From positions 9,906 to 43,835 of the forward strand of contig JAMYWO010000090.1 in assembly GCA_024220525.1 (NCBI GenBank): a stretch of DNA of 33,930 nucleotides, given 5' to 3'. This DNA is from Cochliopodium minus. Its lineage: Eukaryota; Discosea; Himatismenida; Cochliopodiidae. Positions 8,383-29,512 of this stretch are shown here, in pieces. The position numbers and the translations under genes are program-made. Numbering within the stretch: position 1 is the stretch's first letter; each line of letters starts with the position of its first letter. The notes under the pieces are model-generated. The model was not told where the DNA came from and did not search any database. It was given only the letters and a program-made list of their open reading frames with translations.

Positions 8383-11300
8383 TTAATTGAAAATTTCTTC
8401 GTTTGAGATGATAACTTCGTTTCCAAATCTTACTTGGATGTGGTCCAGACATTCATCTTGTTCCACGTCGTCCTTAATTTCAATAGCAACTTTGAGAGCT
8501 TCTGAGTCAATGATCTTCTTTTCCTCCATCACTTTCATCACTTTTATTGCTTTTTCATAAATATAGCTCAATCCAAACATTTTCACTAAAAACAAAAAAA
8601 TGAATTAAAATAAATTTAAATAAAAAAAAAAAAAAATGAAATTTATTACTTCTTTTCATGATTTGCTTTTTGGTAAGTGAAGGAAAGTTTTTGTTGAAAT
8701 AATAATCTACTTCAATTTGAGTGTAAAAAACAGGGTTGATGGAGGGGATTTTGTAGACTATTTTGACGAGCGTAGCAAACAAGTCCTTCCACTTTGAGTT
8801 CAAGTGTTCTTTCCTGAAGTTGATTTCATTTTTTATATTTGTTTCCGAGTTAGGTCTTAATTTCCTCGAAATAGATTTTGCTTCAAGAAAAAATAAAATT
8901 TTGTTCAAAAAAAATTATAAAAAAAATTGAAAATTTTAAAAATAAATACCTAGAGTGATTCCATGTTTCAAAAAACTAACTGCACTTTCTGTGCCATGAT
9001 CCTCCATTTTTATGAATAACCATTTTCTATTAGTTTCCTTGATTGGAAGTTTGCCAAATAAAACGGTTGCTAATTTTAAAATGAAGAAAAAAAAATTAAA
9101 TTAAAATATTTTGGTTTTAAAAAAAAAATTTAAAATGTTTTATAAAAAAAAAAACTAATAATTTAAAATTTTCAATTTAAATTACTTTTCTCTCCAAATA
9201 AGCCACATTTAAATTCTCCACTAAAATCTATTCCAAGTTGATGATATCCCCTTACATTAGTCCCATCTTATATTTGAAATAAAAATAAAAAAATAAAAAA
9301 AATTGTTTATTATGTTTGAAAAAATTTTTAATTTAAACTATGAAATCAAAAATAATTAATAAATAATCTTATTTAAAAGAAATAAAAATGAAAATAAAAT
9401 AGTAAAAAAAAAACTACCGTTTAATTGAAAATCAACATAAAGATCAGGAGCATGTCCCCTGAGAGAATCAATTTTATCGCAATTTTTGATGAGACTCATG
9501 AAGTGAGTGCTTCCATATGACAATTTAGGATTGGAAGTCATTTTAGACATCACTTTTAGTTCTCTGTTGTACGCTACTTTTGACAACCAGTCAAACAATT
9601 CGTAGTTATTATCTTCAATCAAATAGGATCCGCTCAAAAACATACTTATTTAAAAAAATTGGGATATGAAACCATGAAAATACAAAATAAATAATTAAAT
9701 TTAATTAATATTTAAAATAAATTCTAGAAATAATGATTAAAATAAATTTTGATAATGATTAAAAAAAAAAAAATAAAAAAAGAAATAATTAATAAACAGA
9801 AAAGATTTGAGATTTGATTATTAAAAATTAAAAATAATTATTTTAAAAAAATTGTGGTTTTAAATAAAAATAAAATAAAATAGATAAAAGAAAAAAAAGA
9901 GAAAAGAAAAATTAATTTTAAATAACATTTCCAAAAAGAATAAAATAAAAAAATAAATAAAAAACCTTCTTTTATGAAAAGAAGTCTGTATGATTTTCCA
10001 TAAAACATGGATGACCTGCATTTTAGAATTAGGAGAAGAAGCACAGTGCTTTCTCACATCTTCTAGAATTTTCTTGCCCTTTTGGAGGTGTTCTTGGACA
10101 GTGAAGGGGTTGTAGATGCAGTTGAAGTGTTTTTTTATGTACTCACAGAATTCCAACGCTTCTTCTGATTTGCATATTTTTTCTAACGATTTTGGCCAAT
10201 GTATGTCAAAACATTTTTCACACAAACCTTTTTAAAAAAAAATGTTAAAAATAAATTAAAATTAATTAGAAATAATAAATTAAATGAAGAAAAAAAAATA
10301 TCTAAATTAAAATTAAATAATAAATAAATTAATATTTACTTGCGTGACGTCCATCATCGTAATAAACTCTTTTAAAACATGTTTGGCAAACAGGAGAACT
10401 TTTGTTGTTGAAAAAAAAGTCGGAAAAAGCAAAATTAAAACATAGTCTGAAAGATTTTATGAAAAAAAAAATTACCCGCACCTGTTTTAATTTTAAAAAA
10501 AAAAATTTCATAAAATTTCCATTTTTTTTATTTTTTAATTTTACAATCTACAATGATGCAATTTTTGTTCAACATTCCCACAATCATTACATTTTTTACA
10601 ACCACAAGAAAATCCCAAGTAAGTTCCCACACTCTTATATTTTCCATTACCTTTTGTTTTAATAAAAAAGAATAACAAAAAAAAAAAAAAAAAATTTTAA
10701 ATGAGATTATACAAACTAAGCATGAGTAAATTTTCTTTTGGTTTGGAAATAAAACTACATTAGAATTGTTAAATTCAAAAGCCACTTTTTCTATTGAACT
10801 TGATTTTCTGTCCTCCTCGATTTGAAAGTTTTCCAAAATCAGTTTCTTTTCTTCTTTCGAGTTTTGTACAGCTAAAGATAAATATACACTTCCCGATACA
10901 TATTCGTTATCTAAATCAGTGTTGAGATAGAACCATTTTTCTAATGTACCTCCTTCATCAACGATATCCATCACAGGGATGATAACTTGTCCTACTTTTG
11001 ATTTTTTTCGATTTTTTTTTTATTAGATTAGTTCCACTTATTGATTTTTAATTAGGTTTTGTTTTTACAGAAATCATCTTTTCCCATCTTTTTGTCGTAC
11101 AACATTAATTTCAAAGCGGAGTATTCTATTGAATCAAATGGGAAGGGTACAAAATTGAAATCAAATTTTGGGTTCAATGTCTTTTCAACCACTTTTGATT
11201 TTTGTTTCAATCCCCTTTTCGATTTGCATCTTTTTGAAATTTCAATCTTTATTTTATCTCACATTGATTTCAAAAAAAATACCCCAACATTATTGCATAT

Positions 11301-11419
11301 ACGTAAGGATTTCTAATATCAATTCAGTAAATTTTATCAAAAATTAGAATTGAAAGATTTTTGAACCTATAAAGATTCTTATTGGACAAATCTTTTGCTT
11401 CAATAACTATTGTAAACAT
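8383..11419 (-). CDS. C2-FYVE domain protein with unrecognised C-terminal region
   Basis: Thirteen exons on the minus strand: 11419-11367, 11312-11283, 11229-11069, 10994-10713, 10650-10545, 10481-10476, 10398-10340, 10227-9966, 9644-9418, 9266-9186, 9069-8950, 8880-8650, 8585-8383. Phases agree; 606 residues. Residues 1 to about 110 form a C2 domain (VIEAKDL, NPYVYAIMLG, TLNPKF, YDKKMGKDDFLGQ). Residues about 190-240 are a FYVE zinc finger: C193-x2-C196, HHCRLCG (209-213), C217-x2-C220, C235-x2-C238, with the same C2-C3 and C4-C5 spacing I recall for EEA1. FYVE domains bind PI3P on endosomes and C2 domains bind membranes or calcium, so an endosomal adaptor is inferred. The last ~360 residues match no family I know. 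They contain YGSTHFMSLI, RGHAPDLYVDF and WLFIKMEDHG. A 6-nt microexon supplies Cys-Gly of the FYVE signature. Confidence 0.82.
10476..10481 (-). other. 6-nt microexon encoding Cys-Gly of the FYVE motif
   Basis: GTGCGG on the minus strand is flanked by an AACAG acceptor and a GTAATT donor. It completes HHCRLCG: the upstream exon stops at HHCR plus two bases of the next codon, and the downstream exon begins one base before SPVCQTC. Skipping it keeps the frame but removes the Cys-Gly and thus one zinc ligand. Confidence 0.72.
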
Positions 11420-11824: not shown

Positions 11825-13507
11825 ATGTCATCATCAGAAGAAGAATCGAGTGAAAGATCTGGATCAGAGGAGGAATCATCTGAGGAGGAAGATCCAAAAG
11901 TTGAAGTAGAAAATGATTTTTATTCTGCTCAAGATTTATTTGAAGAAAAAAATTGGGAAGATGCAGCTGAAGGATTTGAAGGAGTAATCGAATTAGAAGC
12001 TGATTTTTTATCTAAAAAAAAATTGGATGAAGCAAAATGGTAATAAATCCAAAATTTATAGATGAATGAAATGAATGAGTTTATAATTTTTTTATCCATC
12101 AAATTTTTTTTGAAAGAATATAAAAAATTTTTTATAAAATATACATTTTTCTCCAAATTTAAAAAATAATTTTAATCTGAAAACATAGGACATTCAAATC
12201 AATGCAAAATTTAGGTTTAATATATGGAAAATTGAAGAAGAATGATAAAATCCAAGAAATATACAAAAAAATATTGACATACAAGGGAGATGATATCACT
12301 GAGAACATTTTGGATAAAGCAATTTCTTCTATCCTCGATTCTCTTGAAGAAACTGGAGATGATAGACTTTTGGTTGATATGTATAACATTACTGATGAAA
12401 TCTTAACCAAAAATGGTAACACTAGATCCCTCAATAAGGTAGAATTGAAAAAGGCAAGAGCATTTCTTAACTTGAAAAATTGGGGTCAATTGAAACAAGT
12501 ATTGAGAAAGATCACTCAATCTTTGATTGAACAAAACAAGCGTGATCAATTGCTCGATGTATACGCCCTTGAAATCCAAATGTTCATGGCTTTGAAAGAT
12601 AAGGTTGGAGTGCAATCTGTTTATGATAAAGCCAAAAAAATTGTTGAAAATGATAAGGGTAAACAAAAAATTTTTTTTTTTTTTATAAACTCAAAAATAT
12701 TTATAAAGTATAATAACAGAATAACAATTATTTTCCAAGAGATATCTTGAATTTTCAAAACAATTCTTTAAAAAATTCAATTTATTCCAATTTTTGAATG
12801 TTTAATCAATTCATTTATTCCCTTTAATAATCTAAATTTTTCATAAATTGATAGGTGTATTGTCCACCAAATTGGCTATTTTCAACTATTGTGGAGGAAA
12901 GATTTTGATGGAAGATAGACAATTTGCAACTGCATACAATAAATTATATGAAGCATTTGAATATTTTGTTGAATCTGGAAGTGATTTGATGATTCCTTGT
13001 TTGAAATATATGTTGATGGCAAATATGCTTTCCATCTCTGATAAAGTCAATCCTTTCGTTGATAAAAATGCTCAACCATTGCAACAACACAAAAGCATCA
13101 AGCCTCTTTCTGATCTCCTCGATGCCTATGAAAAGAAAGATATCAAAAACTTTGAGGAAATCTTGAGATTACACCCACAAGAAATTACTGAAGACGATTT
13201 CCTCAATCAATTCATCCAAGAAATCCTCACCAAAGTCAGAATTGAAGTCATCAAGGATAAAATCAAACCTTATACCTCCATTCGTTTGGGTTATCTTGCT
13301 AAATCTCTTAATATCACTTCAAAGGAAGTTGAGGGTTTGATTGTCAGACTCATTCTTGATGGTGAAATCTTCGCCAAGGTTGATCAGATCAAGCAAGTCA
13401 TGATTTTGTCTGGTTCTGGTGGTACTACCGGAAAATATCAATCTATGGAGAAATGGGCTAAGCAACTCCATTCCATCTCTGGACATCTCTCCAATGCTAT
13501 CCATTAA
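11825..13507 (+). CDS. CSN2: COP9 signalosome complex subunit 2
   Basis: Three exons, 11825-12039, 12189-12658 and 12855-13507, join in phase to 445 residues, close to the ~443 of animal CSN2. The N-terminus is Ser/Glu-rich and acidic, as in other CSN2 proteins. Helical-repeat segments follow, including LLDVYALEIQMF and IFNYCGGKILME. A C-terminal PCI/winged-helix region has PCLKYMLMANML, KPYTSIRLGYLAKSLNI and LILDGEIFAKVDQ. The signalosome removes NEDD8 from cullins. CSN2 is a scaffold subunit that in other eukaryotes contacts cullin-RBX1; catalysis sits in CSN5. The gene diverges from the C2-FYVE gene and converges on the Rdx gene, with 134 bp between stops. The paralogous proteasome subunit Rpn6 is the main alternative, but the size and acidic head favour CSN2. 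Confidence 0.93.
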
Positions 13508-18699: not shown

Positions 18700-21600
18700 A
18701 TGAAAAAAGATGAAAACAAAATGGCCAGGAGAGATTGGGAAGATAATGAAGAAGAGGTAGGAATAAGATAAATTTACTCTTTTTGATATAAATAATATTT
18801 TTTTTTACCTTATAACTCTCTTCATACATAAGGAATTCATCAAATGGTCAAATAAATATATAAAATCTAAAGTTGTGAGTAGTCTCGAAGATTTTAGTGA
18901 TGGAGTAACATTATTAGAAATGTGGGAAGAAATAACAGGTTAATATCAAATGAAATTTTTAGGATTATTTTAATATGCCTTTATATCAATATTAATGAAC
19001 ATTAATATTATGCATATCAACATTATTTATTTTAATATTTCATAATTAGGCAAGACAATGAGATATACTAAAAATCCCAGGCTTCCCATCCAAAAACTTG
19101 ATAATTTCCAAACATTCTTCAGTGCTTTGAAAGAAAAAGGATTGACAGTAGATGGATTGAATGTTCAAGGTAAGGATCTCAAAGATAATTTAAAAAACGA
19201 AGATTTTTTTTGAAAAGAAATTTATTATTTTGAATTCAATTGGAATATTATCAATTCATTTCACCTTTATAAAAATTTATTTTATATATTTTTGCTATTA
19301 AATGCTTTTCATCTGTAATTAAAAAATAGATTATATATTTTGATCGAAAATCAAACATAAAAAGCATATTTGCATAATATATTGAGATTTTCTTTGTATA
19401 AATAATTTCTTTTCCATTTTAGCTATTGCTCAGGGTAATTCAAATCAAATCTTGGCATTATTGCATAATATAGTAAGATATGTGATGTCGCAAAATAACA
19501 ATACAAACGAAGAAATTAAGAATCCTCCAAATAATCCCATCAATAGGAATTTGGCAACAAGCCCCAAGAAATCAGCACCTATGTATCTTGAAGATACAAA
19601 AAATGGAAACACGAGGATCTTTTTAAGAGGAGATCAGAGGAAATCAATGTATAATTTTTCTAATGAGCCCAATCATGATCATTTTGGGGTGAAGGATAAT
19701 CATCTTCAAATTCCTGGCTACAATAAGAATAAGAGTATTGGTGGTGAGAGCATTATGGGGAATAATAGTCTCGATGATGAGCATCATGAAGAAATCATTT
19801 TGAAGGAAGGAGATGTTCCCAAGGAAATCATCAGGGTGGAGGTGAATAATCAACATAAAGAGGTAATAGTGACTGAAGATAAAGATCCACAACAAATTGA
19901 GGATCCAAAAAAATCAACACATGATGAACATCCTCATGCAAATGAAGAACAACATCATAATCAAAAAGATAATAAAGAGGAAGAGATTAAAAAAGATAAT
20001 AAGAAAGATACTACAGTAATTGTTGAAGATAAAGTGGAGGTTATAGTGGATATCAAATCTGAATCACCTGAAGAACCCAAAGAAACACAAAATGGGAAAG
20101 ATATTAGCGATATCCAAACAAATGAACCATCCACCAAAGATGAAAACGAAACGAAAGCAAACAACAATGATGATTCATCTTCCACATTGACCTCAGATGA
20201 AGGGGAATCAGACAGCAGCACGACAGAAGATGAAGAAGAGGAAGATTCTCTTCAGGAATCTCCTCTCAGCGAGGTCAAAGAAGAGAAACCTTCTGATGAT
20301 CAAAACAACGAAAAAAACGAGTTGAGAAAGAGTAATCCGAAACAGCCAAAGACAAAGAAAAGACCAAAGATGAAATACAAAAAGGTGTTGGTCAAAAAAC
20401 CCAAAAAAACAGAAAACGGAAAAAAGACCTTGAAGAGAAGAGAAAGCATAAAGAAAGACCAAGAGGCCATTGACAGTTCAAGAAGAATGAGCATCCAAGG
20501 AAGCATCGAAACAGGACCCGAGATGGTTGTGAGAGCCTCTTTTGAAATAGCCATGAAGAACGCTGTGAGTGGGGATGAGGACTCGGAGATGAAAGGGGAG
20601 GAGATCATTCTCGAGCCTGAGGAAGAGACAGGTTCGGAGTCTGTTGATGTCAACACCTCTGAAGAGAGCAACAAAGCTCCTAACCTCCTTCACCACTTGA
20701 GTCGCAACATCAGCTCCAACAAGTCTGACTTTAGGTTGTCTCTCCCTGTAGATATCAATGCTTCCAGCAGAAAACTCCCGATTGCTGTCGAGATCCCTCA
20801 CAGTACCCGCGCCAAAACTGAAGTTCAAAAAACCCTTTCGCAAGTTCGTAAGAACGAGTTGGAGTTGGCCTATCTGCAAAACAAAGAAGCTCACCTCGCT
20901 CTCACCAAGGTACAGTCCCACTTCAGAAAAGTCATCGCAAAGAAAATTTTGAAAGCTCTCAAGGAGAGGAGAACGCGACGTGGGTACATCTCCAAAGAGA
21001 TCTTGACCTCCGAAAAGTCCTACATCGAGGGTCTCCAGCTCTGCCTCACCCACTTCGGAGAGCCCATGAAGACTTTCTCCTACGTCGACTCTGTCCAACA
21101 CAAAACTTTGTTCTCCAACTTGGAGTTCATCCTCAGCTTCAACATGCAGCTCTTCTCCCGCATCAAAGACAGAATCGAGAAGAACTGGGAGAAGGAGGGG
21201 CAACGTATCGGAGATATCTTCGTCGAAATGGGTCTCTACTTGAAAGTTTACACCACCTACATCAACAGTTATACCACCGCTTTGAACATTTACAGGGACT
21301 TGTGTAATAACAAGCAGTTCAAGGAGTTCTGCGGCAAGATGAAGGAGCTGCCTGTCTTGAAGGGCCAGGAGCTTCCTGCCTTCTTGATCTTGCCCATCCA
21401 GCGTTTGCCTCGTTATGTCATGTTGATCCAGGATCTTTTGAAGTTCACCGAGACAGAACACAAAGACCATTATGATCTTGGTCAAGCATTAAAAACACTT
21501 CAAGTAAGAAAACAAATTAATGATTGACCTTTATCAATTTTATTTTTAATTCTATTTCCTTTGTGAAATTTTTTTTAAAATTATTTTTTATCGTTTTAAA

Positions 21601-24381
21601 TTTTATTTTATTTCAAATTTTATTTTCATTTTTATTTTCTTTTATTTTCATTTTTTATCATCAAAACACTTAACATTTTCAAATTTTGTTGATTAAAATT
21701 TTTTTGATTAAATTTATTTTAATTAAACTATTTTGTTAATTAATTCAATTTTATTTTAAATAAATTATTCATAAATTTCACATTTTTTCTTTTTATTTGT
21801 ATTTTTTAAAAAAAAGACAACCACAGATTATGTCAACGAGCAAAAACGTGCGTTTGAAAACATGGACATGATCGCCAAAATCCAAAACAAAATTTCACAT
21901 TGCCCAAACCTTGTACAACCCTCCAGAAGATTTCTCAAGGAGGGACCCCTCTTCAATATAGACAAGAAGAAAGAGTTTTTTTATTTTTTGTTCAGTGATT
22001 GTATCATTGCATCTAAAGTAAAAAAAGTTTTGATCAAACACAAAAGAAAGAAAGGCGAGAAGGAAAAGGACAGTGCCATTGAAGATAAAAACTTGACTTT
22101 CAGGTAATCTTTTTTTACTTCATTTTCAAAATATTTTATAATTTTAGATGTTTTATAATTTTTTTTCATTTTTAATTTTTATTTTTAATTTTTATTTATT
22201 TTCAAATGTTTTTGTTTTTATTTATTAATCAATTTTATTTTTAATTTTTACTTTTAATTTTTACTTTTTTTAATTTAATTCATTTGATTTTTAATTTAAT
22301 TCATTTGATTTTTATTTTAATTCAAATTAGTTTTTATTTTAATTCAAATTAGTTTTTTTTTCTTTTCAACATTTTATTTTTTAATATAGATTCAAAGAAC
22401 AGATCAGTTTGGTCGGATGTGAGTTGAAAGAAATTTCTTCGGATGATGTGACAGACAAGGAGCACACCCCAATCACCAAAAGAATCAAAAACAGTGTCTC
22501 ATCATCCACTTTAGGGAAAAAAGGTTCTTTTTTAAATATTTATTTTTATTTTTATTTTAAATTTTTTAATTCAATTTATTTTTTATTTTTTCATTTATTT
22601 TTTATTTTTTCATTGAATCATTTATCTTATTTATTTTTTAAATTTTTTAATTTTTTATTATTTTTATTTTTTTTCATTTTCTTTTAATTTCAATCTTTTT
22701 ATTTTTTCATTATTTTCATTTATTTTTTCAATTTTTTATAAAGTGAAAGAAAAAGAGTTTCCCTCTTCTGGAATGATGCAAATTATCACCACCAGCCAAG
22801 TTCTCAGCCTCAATGCCTCCTCCCCCGAAGAAAAGATGGAGTGGCTCAAAACCATTGACAACAGTTGGTCCAAGTTGATCGACAACGAAAGATCACGTGT
22901 ACAAAATAAAGGTAAAATTTTTTAAAATTTATTTATTTTTAATTATTTTCAAGTTTTTTAAAACAAATTTTTTTTGAACATTTTTTTTTTATTTTAAATT
23001 TTTTTCATTTTTTTTTTTTTTAAACGCAGAAAAAGTTTTGGATGAACCCCCTATTAGTCTCACTCAGGATTATTCCAACATCAACACTCTTTCTCGTGTT
23101 TTGTACGAGAAAGTGGATGGGAAATGGAGAAAAGTGTTTTGTAAAGGTAAATAAAGAAATAAAAATAAAAATAAAAATAAAAATAAAAATAAAAATAAAA
23201 AATAAAATAAAAAAATTTAAAATAAAAAATTTAATTTGTTCTATTTAGTTATTAATACACACATCCTTTTCTATCATGAAAAGACGGACAAAGAGGCCTT
23301 CAAATCCATTTTCATCCTCAAATCCACTTGTGAACTCAGCAAGAAAACTGATTTTGGGTATTCTTTCATCATCAAGGTAAAAAAAACTTTTAAAAATTAT
23401 TAAAAAATTTCAATAAAAATTATCTCCTTCAAAATGAAAAAATAAAAAATAAAACAAAAAAAAAATAAAAAATAAATAAAATATAAAAAAATCTTAAAAA
23501 TAAAAAATAAAAAAAAATATCATATTTTTTCATAAAAAATTAAATTAATTTTTAATAGGTAAAAGACGGAAAAACATACAAAATGGGAGCAGAAGATCTT
23601 AACACAATCTTCCAATGGTTCAGGTGTGTGAGAATTCTCATCCGTAGCGCCATCGAGGTGGAGAAGAGAACTCTCCTTCAAGATATCATGTTAATTGATG
23701 ACAGCAACAAGCAGTGTGCTGATTGCGAAATGAATGGTCCTCAATACGCCAATCTTTATTTTAATGTATTTGTTTGTATTGGTACTCTTTTTTAATTTTT
23801 TTATTATTTTTTTATTTATTATTTTTTATTTTATCAAATTTTTATATTTATTTTTTTTTTCAATTTTTTTTAAATTTCTTATTTAATGATAAAGATTAAT
23901 TTTTAATTTATTAATTATATTTATTTTTTAGGTTGTGCTGAAGTCCACCGTTTATTTCCTAACAAAGAGTATTCCAAAATCATCAATGTGCGAGAAGAAG
24001 TCACAAAAGAACAAGTGACAAACAACGAAGTAAAAAAATACTATTAATATTTTTTTTATGATTTTTTTCATAATTTAAAATTTTAATCATTTATTTTTTA
24101 TTTATTTTTATTTTTATTTTATTAAATTTATTTTTTCATTTTAATTTGTTTTTTTTTTATAGATAAGAAACAAAGTATCCAACGAAAAATATTTGTCCAA
24201 TCTTCCTTCTAGTTTTTCAAAGTTGCAACCTCATGATGATCACGAAACAAGAAGAACTTACATTTTTGCTAAATACATCACTGCCAAGTTTGATGACGAA
24301 AAGGGTTATGACATCGCCAAATTTTTGTTTAATGTTGCTTTCCATAAGAACGGATCCAATAATTCTCTTGAGAAAAAATAA
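18700..24381 (+). CDS. CH-IQ-RhoGEF(DH)-PH-PH-ArfGAP multidomain regulator
   Basis: Twelve exons: 18700-18756, 18833-18938, 19050-19169, 19423-21503, 21817-22103, 22390-22523, 22744-22911, 23030-23146, 23249-23376, 23559-23781, 23932-24029, 24163-24381. Phases agree; 1245 residues. A calponin-homology domain spans about 20-125 (FIKWSNKYI, LEDFSDGVTLLEMWEEITG, QGNSNQILALLHNIV). A long charged, disordered linker follows. An IQ-like helix (TKVQSHFRKVIAKK) lies near 590-605, and the DH domain covers about 615-825, with LILPIQRLPRYVMLIQDLLK as CR3. PH1 spans about 840-985 (GPLFNI, MEWLKTI). PH2 includes KWRKVF. The ArfGAP finger is C1119-x2-C1122-x16-C1139-x2-C1142 with arginine finger R1147. It should activate Rho/Rac and stimulate Arf GTP hydrolysis at actin-rich membranes. 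From memory, Dictyostelium GxcDD has a similar domain set. Donors GTTAAT and GTTCTT are unusual. Confidence 0.9.
23150..23220. repeat. AAAAAT hexamer repeat in an intron
   Basis: A run of AAAAAT units fills the intron between exons 8 and 9 of the RhoGEF/ArfGAP gene. It is A-rich on the coding strand. Confidence 0.75.
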
Positions 24382-24517: not shown

Positions 24518-25651
24518 ATGGGAAATCTTTTGTCCTTTAATGCAACACCCAATGAACCAAAAAAGTAAAAATTTTCTGATATAAATAATCTCATTTCCTT
24601 TGTAAATAAAAATGGAAGGATTTCAAAAGAGGGGATGATTGAATTAAACTCGATTGAGAAGCAAATATGGAGATTGATTCTCTCCCAATTGGAATTCAAA
24701 GATTTATTCGAAATCTCCTCAGTATGCAAAAGTTTTTTCTTTCTATTAAAAGAAGATGAGATCTTTTGGAGTATATTTGCTGATAGAAATACCCAAATCA
24801 AAAAATTGCCAAATCAATATTCAAGCTGGAAACAAATGATGAACCATTATTACCTAATAGGTTGGGACTTCGATCCATCTTCGAATACATATGAATTGGA
24901 CGGACAATTTAACAAAACAATCACAAATATCCAAAATAAATCATCAAAATGGGCAAATATAATGACGAAAAATCATTTTATAGAAGGTGTCCTTTATCCT
25001 ATTTACATTATTACATTACCAGTGTATTTAATTTTTAAATTTTTCTTCCAATTAAATTATCCATTTACATACTGAAAAAAGAAACTACTTAGCAATAGGA
25101 GTGTCAACTCTAAAAACAAACTTAAAAGAAGTACAATTTTTTTTCAATACAAAGTTTATATTCTAACAATTTTTTTAAAATGCTTTCTAAGAATTCTGGT
25201 TTTGGAACAGACAAGTATAACAATTTCTTTATTTGTTTTTATTTCAAAAAATTTTTGATAAATTTTTTTAAATAAAAAAAGACATAGATACTCTTATTAT
25301 TTTTACCAAGAATCATCAGATCCTTATTACACAAACAAAGAAAAAGGAAATTTAATGGATGGAAAAAGGCAAATGAAAAATAACAGTACTGTTTACATTT
25401 ACATTCACAGAGGTAGTTATGATCAAAGCAACTCTTCAAAAGCAAAAGTCAGTTTTTTTATTAAATACGAAGATGAAAAAGAGATGCAATATGTTTTTAG
25501 TGTTTGTGACATTACTCTTGATGCTGGTGAGAAATTGCATGGGTTTGTTGGGAGTGTCAAAGAATTCACTTGCATCAGACTTGAAACTCCTTTGTTTGGT
25601 TTTGATGAGAAGTCTCTCCCTTCTTCTTTGTATTCTTTCTCTCCTTTGTGA
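24518..25651 (+). CDS. F-box protein, copy A, with N-myristoylation-type N-terminus
   Basis: Five exons, 24518-24564, 24619-25023, 25082-25130, 25192-25214 (23 nt) and 25282-25651, join in phase to 297 residues. It begins MGNLLS, a good N-myristoylation signal (Gly2, Ser6). The F-box follows directly: MIELNSIEKQIWRLILSQLE, then EISSVCKSFFFLLKEDEIFW. Next come GWDFDP, EGVLYP and YLAIGVSTLK, the microexon NSGFGTD, and a beta-rich tail (STVYIYIHRGSYDQ, AKVSFFIKYEDEKEMQYVF, LDAGEKLHG). F-boxes bind SKP1 in SCF ubiquitin ligases, so the tail is probably the substrate-binding part. I do not recognise that domain. Copies B-D follow in tandem on the same strand, clearly by duplication. Confidence 0.82.
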
Positions 25652-25807
25652 ATCCTGTTTTTAAAATATTTTTGTACAATAAATTATAAAATGGAAATAA
25701 AAATTCAAAGAAATTGAGGTTTTTGTTTTGGTGAATAAATTTAATTCCTCCTCAAAAAACAAAATTTAATTTATATATTTTGAAAATTTTCAATAAAAAT
25801 AAAAAAA

Positions 25808-26960
25808 ATGGGAAATAATAGTTCTAAAACAATGGAAGTAAATGAATCCACCCCAAAATAAAATGAAACAAGGTTATTCAATTAATCAATTAATCAATAT
25901 TTAAAAATATTTTATTGATTACATTCGAATAAATAAGAAGAGATATCCGAACCAAAAATAGAAGAGAAAAAAATTATAAAGATTATTGAGATTTCAAAAG
26001 AGGGGATGATGGAATTAAACTCGATTGAAAAGCAAATATGGAGATTGATTCTCTCCAAATTGGAATTCAAAGATTTATTCGAAATCTCCTCTGTATGCAA
26101 AAGTTTTTTCTTCTTATTGAAAGAAGATCTTTTGGAGTATATTTGCTGATAGAAATACCCAAATCAAAAAATTGCCAAATCAATATTCAAGTTGGAAACA
26201 AATGATGATCTATCATTTCAACTATGGATGGGTTCGATCCATCTTTGAAATTTGAATTGAGAAAGTTACAAAATTACCCATGTAACAAAAGAAATTCATT
26301 TATTCTTTTTTTTATTTATTAATTTTTTAAAAAAAGAATGTATTTGGCAATTGGTGTGGCCACACTAAAAAAAGACTATAAATTAGTAAATTTTATTGAT
26401 TATATTTTTTTTTTTCCACCCTTTTAATCTTTCATTCTTTAAGAATTACACATTCGCGACCTAACAAGTTTTTTCAATAAATTTGTTGTTTTCATTTCAA
26501 ATTTTATATTTGATAAATTATTTTTTTACATTTCATTATGTTAATTTTATCTTTTTAAAAATTTTGCTTTTCGTATCAATTTTCATTTGTTTTAAATATT
26601 ATTCAGGCATAGATACTCTTATTATTTTTACCAAGAATCATCAGATCCTTATTTCACAAACAAGCGAATTGGAAATTATTTGAATGGGAAAAGAAACATG
26701 AAAAATCATTGTACTGTTTACATTTACATCCACAGAGGGAGTTATGATCAACACAACCCTTCGAAAGCAAAAGTAGTTTTTTTATTAAATACGAAAATGA
26801 AAAAGAGATGCAATATGTGTTTACTTTTTGTGACATTCCTTTGGATGCTGGTGAAACTTTACATAGTTTCTTGGGTTGTGTGTATGAGTGTAGCATCAAA
26901 CTTGAAACTCTCATTTTTGAATTTAAATGAAAAATCTGTTTGATAACTTGCATTGGGTTT
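25808..26960 (+). pseudogene. F-box protein copy B, decayed
   Basis: All parts of the family can be found in order, but with several lesions. The MGNNSS exon (from 25808) runs into TAA and has lost the donor found in copy A. The F-box exon (from about 25990) lacks 5 nt after KED, at about 26130, shifting the frame into a stop. The region after the F-box is shortened. The YLAIGVATLK exon is recognisable at about 26336-26390. The microexon equivalent (about 26444) has an extra base and an in-frame TAA. The C-terminal exon (from about 26608) lost one base near 26773, just after the family's SKAKV segment. Nucleotide identity to copies A and C stays high, so the decay looks recent. Confidence 0.85.
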
Positions 26961-27166
26961 ATCCCTCTCGATAATAGTTTTAAATCAAAAATTTAAACTT
27001 GAGTTCAATTAAGATTTAAATTTGAAAATGTGTTCTAATTTATTTGAAATGCAAATTGATTTATTATTCAAGAAATATCAAAGAAATTGAGAAAAAAATA
27101 TAAAAAAAATTGTGAAAATAAAAAATAAAAATTTCAAATTAATAAAATCTGATTTCAAAAGAGGAA

Positions 27167-28183
27167 ATGATTTCAAAAGAGGGGATGATTGAATTAAACT
27201 CGATTGAAAAGCAAATATGGAGATTGATTCTCTCCAAATTGGAATTCAAAGATTTATTAGAAATCTCCTCAGTATGCAAAAGTTTTTTCTTTCTATTAAA
27301 AGAAGATGAGATCTTTTGGAGTATATTTGCTGATAGAAATACCAATAACAAAAAATTGCCAAATCAATATTCAAGCTGGAAACATATGATGATCTGCCAA
27401 TTTTTTTATGGATGGGACTTCGATCCAACTTTGAAATTTGAATTGAGAGAATTCAATACAATCACATACGTCCATAAAAGCAATCATTTTGAATGGGACA
27501 ATGCATTTACCAAAAATTATTTAAGAGAAGGAATTTTGTATCCTTTCTTCATTATTGAGAAGTACATGTAAAAACAATATAATCTTGTAAAATTTCTTTT
27601 TAAAAACTTCATTATAATAATAGTTCAGAATTTGAAATTGGTGTTTGTACCTTAATTAAAGAACAAAAGGTAGAGATTTTTTAATTTAAAAAATTTCTTA
27701 TTTAAAAAAAAAAATTTTTTAAAAGAGTAAAAAGGCATTGAAGTAAAATTTTTGTAATTTTTGGGCATCTCAATTACTTATTTTTTCTTTCTATAAATTC
27801 TCAGGAATAGATACACTTATCATTCAATGATAGAGGAATTTACTCCCGTTTTTTATAGTGGACAACCACAAAGTTTGAAGGGGAAAAAAAATGTAAAAAA
27901 TAACAGTACTGTTTATATTTACATACACAGAGGAAGTTATGATCAAAACAACTCTTCGAAAGCAAAAGTCAGTTTTTTTATTAAATACGAAAATGAAAAA
28001 GATATGCAATATGTGTTTAGTGTTTTTAAAATTCCTTTGGATGCTGGTGAAAATTTGTATGGGCATTTAGGATGCAACCTCAATTTAGTCAGCGTTAGAC
28101 TTGAAAATCCCATCTTAAACTTTGAAGAAGAAGAAAATTTACCTCCACTCTTAAACATCTTCTATCCTATTACTCAAAGATAA
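27167..28183 (+). CDS. F-box protein, copy C, lacking the myristoylation exon
   Basis: Four exons, 27167-27567, 27624-27669, 27726-27742 (17 nt) and 27805-28183, join in phase to 280 residues. The F-box is almost identical to copy A (MIELNSIEKQIWRLILSKLE), followed by GWDFDP, EGILYP, the IGVCTLIKEQK exon and the STVYIYIHRGSYDQ tail. No MGN exon can be found in the 220 bp upstream. Translation would begin at MISKEGMIEL, where the ATG lies in a short tandem duplication. The protein would therefore be soluble if the family is normally myristoylated. The microexon could instead be 8 nt (27735-27742); both keep the frame. It may still be functional, as no stop or frameshift is seen. Confidence 0.75.
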
Positions 28184-28300
28184 TGATTTAATCTCAATTA
28201 CTGAACATCAATTTTTTTTATATGTTTGGAAGAAAATTAAAAAAATTTAAAATTATATAAAAATTAATATAAGAATTAAGATTTGTGGAAAAAAAAAAAA

Positions 28301-29512
28301 ATGGGAAATAAAAACTCCAAGGAAAGGTTTTATAATCAAATTTGATAGGATATTAAAATTTTTTTCTTATTTTTAAAATTTTAGAATTGAAAGGATAATA
28401 ATCCCTATTACAAAAGAAAGGATGATAGAATTAAATTCCAATGAGCGACATGTATGGAGATTAATTCTCTCCAAATTGGAATTCAAAGATTTATTCGAAA
28501 TTTCTTCAGTATGCAAAAGTTTATTCTTTCTATTGAAAGAAGATGAGATCTTTTGGAGCTTATTTGTTGAATGGAAATTGGGCATAAAAAAATTGCCGAA
28601 TGAATGTCCAACATGGAAATTGATGGTGATCAATCGTTTCTCATTCAGATGGAATATCGAAGCTAATAAGAAGTTATTCGAATTGGAAGGGAAAGATGGA
28701 AAAACGATCACAAATATCGAAAAAGATTATTATGATTTCACAATTGCATTAACAAAAAACTATTTTATGGAGGGTGTATTGTATCCATTTTTAATTTGTC
28801 AAATACCAAAGTAAAAATAAAAAAAAAAATTTCTTTTTGAAATAATAACAAAAATCTCAAGGTTTTTTTTATCTTTTGGGGTGGCAACTTTAAAAACAGT
28901 TTTGTCAGGAGTAACTGTTTTTAAAAAAAGTTATTGTTAAAGATTCCTTAAATAATTTTGTTTGTTTAAAACAGAAAAAAATAGAATTTGGGGCCGACTC
29001 GTAACAAAAAAATTTTCAAATTTTTTTTATTTTTAAATTATCTCTTTAAATTAATCTTTTAAATTATCTTTAGAAATTAATTTAATTATTTTTTTTTTTA
29101 TCTTTTTAAAAAATTTTTTTAAATTTTTCTTAGACACAGATACATGTTATATTACTACAAAGAACATGACCCACCGTATTATGTCAATAACTCTAAGGGA
29201 GTAGCACTCAAAGGAACGAAATGCTTCAATAATTATAGCACTGTCTACATTTATATTCACAAGGGAAGTTACGATCAGCACAACCCTTCGAAAGCGAAAG
29301 TCAGTTTTTTGATAAAATACAAATTTGAAAAAGAAATGCAGTATATTCTATCTATTTACAACATACCTTTGGATGCAGGTGAGAAATTGTATGGATGTGT
29401 CGGAACAAATAGAAACACGGCACGAGTTAGACTTGAAGATCCCATTTTCGATTTTGATGAAAAAAACCTTCCTTTAAAATTGAAAATTGTTTATCCATTG
29501 GGAAAAAAATAG
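28301..29512 (+). CDS. F-box protein, copy D, with N-myristoylation-type N-terminus
   Basis: Five exons, 28301-28326, 28385-28810, 28862-28910, 28975-29000 (26 nt) and 29134-29512, join in phase to 301 residues. It begins MGNKNS, again a myristoylation-type start. The F-box (IELNSNERHVWRLILSKLE) is followed by EGVLYP, FLSFGVATLK, the microexon KKIEFGAD and the family tail (STVYIYIHKGSYDQHNPSKA, LDAGEKLYGCVG). The exon carrying FLSFGVATLK is 49 nt, exactly as in copy A, and the exon phases match, which supports both models. It is the most diverged copy of the cluster. Role as for copy A: a likely SCF substrate receptor, possibly membrane-anchored. Confidence 0.82.

Follow-up and report, generated by a model that had tools for sequence, protein, structure and literature searches.

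A candidate 6-nt microexon supplying Cys-Gly to a FYVE-like zinc domain in Cochliopodium minus

Plant microexons of 1–15 nt lie in some cases within conserved protein motifs and are often missed by annotation (PMC8831610). Many are described there as conserved across land plants and supported by RNA, and the introns flanking the 1-nt exon of APC11 occur in some copies of the gene but not in others (PMC8831610). In the fungus Trichoderma virens, a microexon of Xlr2 encodes two zinc-ligand cysteines (PCRRCE) of a Zn2Cys6 domain, and the short mRNA is reported to yield a protein without the zinc domain (PMC11121469). Neuronal microexons of animals are likewise very short, and those treated in the reports cited are alternatively spliced with known regulators (e.g., PMC8378409, PMC7935315).

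Microexons are taken here to be exons of no more than 30 nt. The exon described here lies in a 33,930-nt stretch of Cochliopodium minus DNA (contig JAMYWO010000090.1, positions 9,906 to 43,835), hereafter the window. It resembles the plant exons in its tiny size and in its place within a conserved motif, APC11 in having flanking introns that vary among gene copies, and Xlr2 in encoding a zinc-ligand cysteine. It differs from both systems in being known from genome sequence alone, from the plant exons in belonging to one protist gene, and from Xlr2, whose exon is longer and is included in a glucose-dependent manner according to that report (PMC11121469), in supplying a single ligand of a FYVE-like domain. 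Microexons in conserved motifs (plants) and a zinc-ligand cysteine microexon (Trichoderma) are already known, and the window microexon would join them. Among the matches listed in the open-access literature, no report on a microexon in a FYVE domain was found, as judged by titles; intron position or gain in FYVE domains was not found among the matches listed either, and no match concerned an intron hot spot or parallel gain in these domains.

The host gene lies on the minus strand (8383..11419) and was modelled with 13 exons encoding 606 amino acids followed by a TAA stop, including a C2 domain, a FYVE-like cysteine-rich domain and a conserved C-terminal region. Open frames, GT-AG sites and resemblance to relatives guided the manual placement of the start codon and of several junctions; no stop interrupts the 606 codons. 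The C2 domain is encoded in part by exon 3 (11069..11229) and ends in exon 4 (10713..10994), which also contains the first CxxC. Exon 2, within the C2 domain, is itself just 30 nt long (window 11312-11283). Exon 5 (10545..10650) encodes the N-terminal half of the zinc domain and ends after HHCR plus two bases of a Leu codon, exon 7 (10340..10398) encodes SPVCQTCFKRVYYDDGRHA, and exon 8 (9966..10227) encodes the last zinc-ligand pair (CEKC) and the region beyond.

Between exons 5 and 7, we consider it quite probable that the hexamer GTGCGG (10476..10481, minus strand) is a genuine, normally included microexon, which supplies Cys212 (the fourth FYVE-type ligand) and Gly213 to the FYVE-like domain of this C2 protein and which was split off by a second intron beside an older one. 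Its sequence, its splice sites, a unique splice solution and two relatives carry the argument. On the minus strand ...TTAAAACAG leads into the hexamer and GTAATT follows it. The hexamer comprises the end of the Leu211 codon, the Cys212 codon and the start of the Gly213 codon, and it lies between GT-AG introns of 63 nt upstream (10482..10544, GTAAAA...ACAG) and 77 nt downstream (10399..10475, GTAATT...AAAAG), with coordinates and sites as described in an earlier note on this DNA. Exon 5 ends at 10545 with ...CATCATTGTAGATT and exon 7 starts at 10398 with TTCTCCTGTTTGC. Both junctions are phase 2 (TT|G TGC GG|T), giving L-C-G in the translation HHCRLCGSPVCQTC. Skipping of the hexamer would give HHCRFSPVCQTC: the frame is kept and the zinc ligand is lost, as had been noted earlier, and L-C-G is in addition replaced by F (TT|T), on which the earlier note was silent.

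Splice sites were ranked against those of 33 introns from a survey of FYVE-type loci in the same genome. The acceptor before the microexon ranked 30/33 and the donor after it 25/33; the upstream intron's donor ranked 16/33, and the downstream intron's acceptor was weak (8/33). The microexon acceptor is the only CAG acceptor among the 12 introns of the modelled gene. Both flanking introns are close to the survey median length of 72 nt.

All GT-AG solutions between the flanking exons were enumerated with introns of at least 35 nt. Eight keep the frame open, three with one intron and five with two, and the pattern CxxCGxxxCxxC is given by only one of these eight stop-free solutions, that with the 6-nt exon. 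The 146-nt interval was then shuffled 40,000 times with its dinucleotides preserved, with six bases at each end kept in place and a minimum of 35 nt required of both introns. Some in-frame AG...GT segment appeared in 12,680 of the shuffles, a 6-nt AG/GT-bounded exon with Cys appeared in 5, and in 2 of those 5 it read xCG. Thus, a small candidate exon is unsurprising, whereas one that restores the ligand is surprising. A purpose-written profile-guided spliced aligner, with a FYVE profile from six seeds (one of them a hand-typed consensus), picked the 6-nt exon unprompted in the real sequence; across 2,000 shuffles, every exon it chose was longer than 20 nt. Taken by itself, the total spliced-alignment score does not stand out, because 23 of the 2,000 shuffles matched it via other paths.

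Inclusion of the hexamer produces the eight-ligand FYVE spacing C-x2-C-x10-HHC-x2-CG-x3-C-x2-C-x14-C-x2-C, which bears out the earlier observation that Cys-Gly from a 6-nt exon gives C-x2-C-x10-HHC-x2-CG-x3-C-x2-C; this is a spacing in sequence, from which zinc binding is predicted. The C2 domain (PF00168) scored 55.3 bits, above the cut-off of 22, whereas the FYVE family (PF01363, curated cut-off 27.8) scored below its cut-off at every query length (14.7, 16.5, 20.2 and 15.2 bits), including 16.5 bits in the full gene model and 20.2 bits for the isolated 84-residue domain with the microexon. For the isolated domain in its skipped form, or in the form given by a rival acceptor at 10447, no Pfam family was listed at E up to 10. 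A genome-wide FYVE family search, run exon by exon, listed no match at E ≤ 0.001 on C90, the contig of the window, which counts against the reading. When a profile of the window domain and its two relatives was compared with solved structures, the first six matches were FYVE domains (VPS27, E = 0.0016; EEA1, E = 0.0018), followed by MAT1 RING proteins (E = 0.043).

FYVE domains bind PI3P through the motifs WxxD, R(R/K)HHCR and RVC. The window gene lacks WxxD, reads KLHHCR and has SLC instead of RVC. It therefore has in common with the FYVE zinc fingers of VPS27 and EEA1 the eight-cysteine spacing, including HHCRxCG, and differs from the family in its score, in the absence of WxxD and RVC, in four extra cysteines shared with its relatives, and in the absence of HH from both of those relatives. 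The low score, the missing WxxD and RVC, the KLHHCR reading and the lack of HH in the relatives leave the earlier view of a proper PI3P-binding FYVE domain unsupported and make PI3P binding doubtful on present sequence grounds. Because the spacing and the structure matches fit and the PI3P motifs are missing, the domain is, as judged from its sequence, a diverged, cysteine-rich, FYVE-like zinc domain.

Two relatives in the same genome, on contigs C261 (L013, L062) and C47 (L015, L063), match the zinc region and the C-terminal region. They were compared over these two regions, and their proteins were spliced by hand and later by the aligner. Identity over the aligned region was 41% and 33%. The three-sequence alignment has 28 invariant columns, which include 12 cysteines, the microexon Cys among them, and the microexon Gly. 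Thus, both microexon residues are present at the aligned place in 2/2 relatives, and both relatives encode CxxCG; they read YDRCEPCGG and DDNCISCGG at this stretch, so HH is missing.

Intron positions in the relatives suggest how the microexon arose. One intron of the C47 gene, at residue 211 in phase 2, coincides in residue and phase with the intron upstream of the microexon, and CGGILCMNC is then encoded in one exon. In the C261 gene an intron falls inside the Cys codon (residue 212, phase 2), and GGPTCKEC follows. With profile-guided splicing, the intron at residue 213 was absent from both C47 and C261. Both relatives have phase 1 introns at residues 423 and 463, and C47 has another at residue 176 (phase 1); by exon lengths, the window gene has all three. 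Since the upstream intron is common to C47 and the downstream intron occurs in neither relative, the microexon is most simply derived from an intron inserted 6 nt past an older one. The simplest history would therefore involve a single gain in the window gene, that of the phase 2 intron at residue 213, and the downstream intron is probably the newer of the two. The opposite order of events, in which the residue-213 intron was lost in both relatives, is possible. A DNA search of the genome for a copy of the downstream intron, as a possible source, returned only the window itself; this search skips simple repeats. The comparison with the two relatives thus provides a plausible origin for a microexon, in which a second intron is placed only a few bases away from one that was already there.

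The surroundings of this motif were surveyed in 36 FYVE-type loci of the genome, each represented by one best alignment even where a locus contains two or more domains. One locus was dropped as a duplicate (L008, of L048), a tandem array on contig C25 (L051, L052) was left out, and one locus ends at a contig end (L037). Introns of 35–400 nt were allowed by the aligner, and the four longer than 260 nt may be wrongly placed. The loci were picked up by their recognisable half-domains, a possible source of bias in intron positions. The survey yielded 33 introns in 23 of the 36 loci, with lengths of 49–312 nt and 28/33 at 139 nt or less. Within or at the edges of HHCRxCG lay 20 of the 33 (binomial P = 1e-11), a raw count inflated by shared ancestry since a position that recurs in related genes does not count as independent; counted as distinct positions, 6 of 17 lay inside, a modest enrichment (binomial P = 0.008). 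Both P values are optimistic because the region, which starts at the boundary preceding HHC and runs through CG, was defined with the positions already known. The window gene adds two further positions (residues 211 and 213, both phase 2). Many FYVE matches of the genome-wide search stop or restart at profile positions 28–32. Many Ras-domain matches in the genome listing likewise begin near profile positions 52–79 (uncounted), so a clustering of introns near conserved motifs may extend beyond FYVE domains.

Other small exons were seen in the survey: a 13-nt exon, CATCATTGTAGAG, encoding HHCR in L042 and L046 (contigs C422 and C175), an 18-nt exon carrying CGxIFC in L038 and L040 (contigs C93 and C290) and, less certainly, a 20-nt exon in L038. 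All three PI3P motifs were matched by simple patterns in 15/36 loci. It would be a speculative reading, to which we give little credence, that HHCRxCG is a recurrent intron-insertion hot spot in this lineage (8 positions in approximately 21 nt, including the window gene) that has repeatedly isolated ligand codons as 6-, 13- and 18-nt microexons, some of which, the 6-nt exon first, are used as splicing switches of lipid or zinc binding. The survey does suggest that this domain offers repeated cases of intron gain for study inside one genome. The array left out of it (C25:136700-153700) is a single 5,856-codon open frame with 42 FYVE matches listed, and the five repeats that were read out all lack the HHCR motif.

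If the hexamer is a normally included microexon, an older intron in the codon before Cys-Gly, common to a relative in the same genome, would have been joined by a second intron 6 nt downstream, which would have cut off Cys-Gly as an exon of its own. Short introns favour recognition across the intron (intron definition). Each of the two introns would probably be handled by the spliceosome as a unit, so that a 6-nt exon could be tolerated with no need for exon definition; they would probably be removed stepwise, one after the other, because factors on either side of so small an exon would collide. Without the microexon the domain would lack one ligand and probably would not fold, and constitutive inclusion is therefore expected. 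The exon had earlier been placed near the lower limit of exon definition, which agrees neither with the survey, where the size of most introns (28/33 at no more than 139 nt) is one usually tied to intron definition, nor with the 1-nt plant microexons documented (PMC8831610). In human genes, CAG acceptors usually go with higher inclusion and zinc-ligand exons are described as highly included, very small exons are in general included less efficiently, and 18 tested Zn/Ca exons (47%) were skipped in at least one transcriptome, as stated in one study (PMC10853796). By analogy, these human trends may carry over to this protist, as we infer. Exons so small are easily missed in gene prediction, and here a miss would cost the predicted protein a zinc ligand, so that a working domain would pass for a broken one.

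By analogy, a switch is a possible function of the window microexon, and a regulated cassette, in which skipping gives an isoform without the zinc ligand and the domain is turned on or off by splicing, would be compatible with 6 nt flanked by two phase 2 junctions, for which skipping is frame-neutral, and with a skipped intron of 146 nt, inside the observed 49–312 range. There is precedent in the Xlr2 microexon, whose two Zn(II)2Cys6 cysteines are reported as part of a glucose-dependent switch (PMC11121469), and in human Zn/Ca-ligand exons, which can be skipped (PMC10853796). We nevertheless regard it as unlikely, given that the microexon's own sites score well, that no Pfam FYVE match is listed for the skipped product, and that in two other FYVE loci skipping of the 13-nt exon would shift the frame, so that cassette use is not what the local pattern points to. 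The clean off switch envisaged in the earlier note is thus unsupported, and the Cys and the Gly are both present in the two relatives.

Two further readings dispense with the microexon altogether. Exon 7 could instead start at 10446, after the acceptor TTTCAG (last base 10447, minus strand), which adds 48 in-frame nt and leaves a 98-nt intron, with the frame open and in phase, giving HHCRLLCFNFAFSDFFFNNKSSPVCQTC. This model was rejected as very improbable: its spacing is at odds with both relatives, no Pfam match was listed for it, and only 4 of the 33 survey acceptors score equal or lower. The hexamer also begins with GT straight after AG, as a recursive splice site (CAG|GTGCGG, a zero-length exon) would, in which case the six bases would never be retained. 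As a donor, GTGCGG scored lower than every one of the 33 survey donors, a point against recursive splicing, and the product would lack a zinc ligand kept by both relatives; this candidate, too, was rejected, and we give it almost no weight. The weak FYVE match would be consistent with a decaying gene in which the domain is already broken and the Cys-Gly hexamer is residual. Such decay is highly improbable against an open frame through the 13-exon model, 12 cysteines common to both relatives and C-terminal exons that match both, and a pseudogene was rejected on these grounds.

Elsewhere in the window, a PCI-domain protein, presumably proteasome-lid or COP9-like, is encoded at 12181-13507 on the other strand and is transcribed away from the C2 gene. 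A long single open frame at 19386-21527 encodes a RhoGEF protein, and G+C content at 20001-22000 is 38.6%, compared with 26.4% and 22.2% in the adjoining 2-kb stretches. Three similar open reading frames follow in a row at 24569-28814 (24569, 27146 and 28377), the first of which matches F-box.
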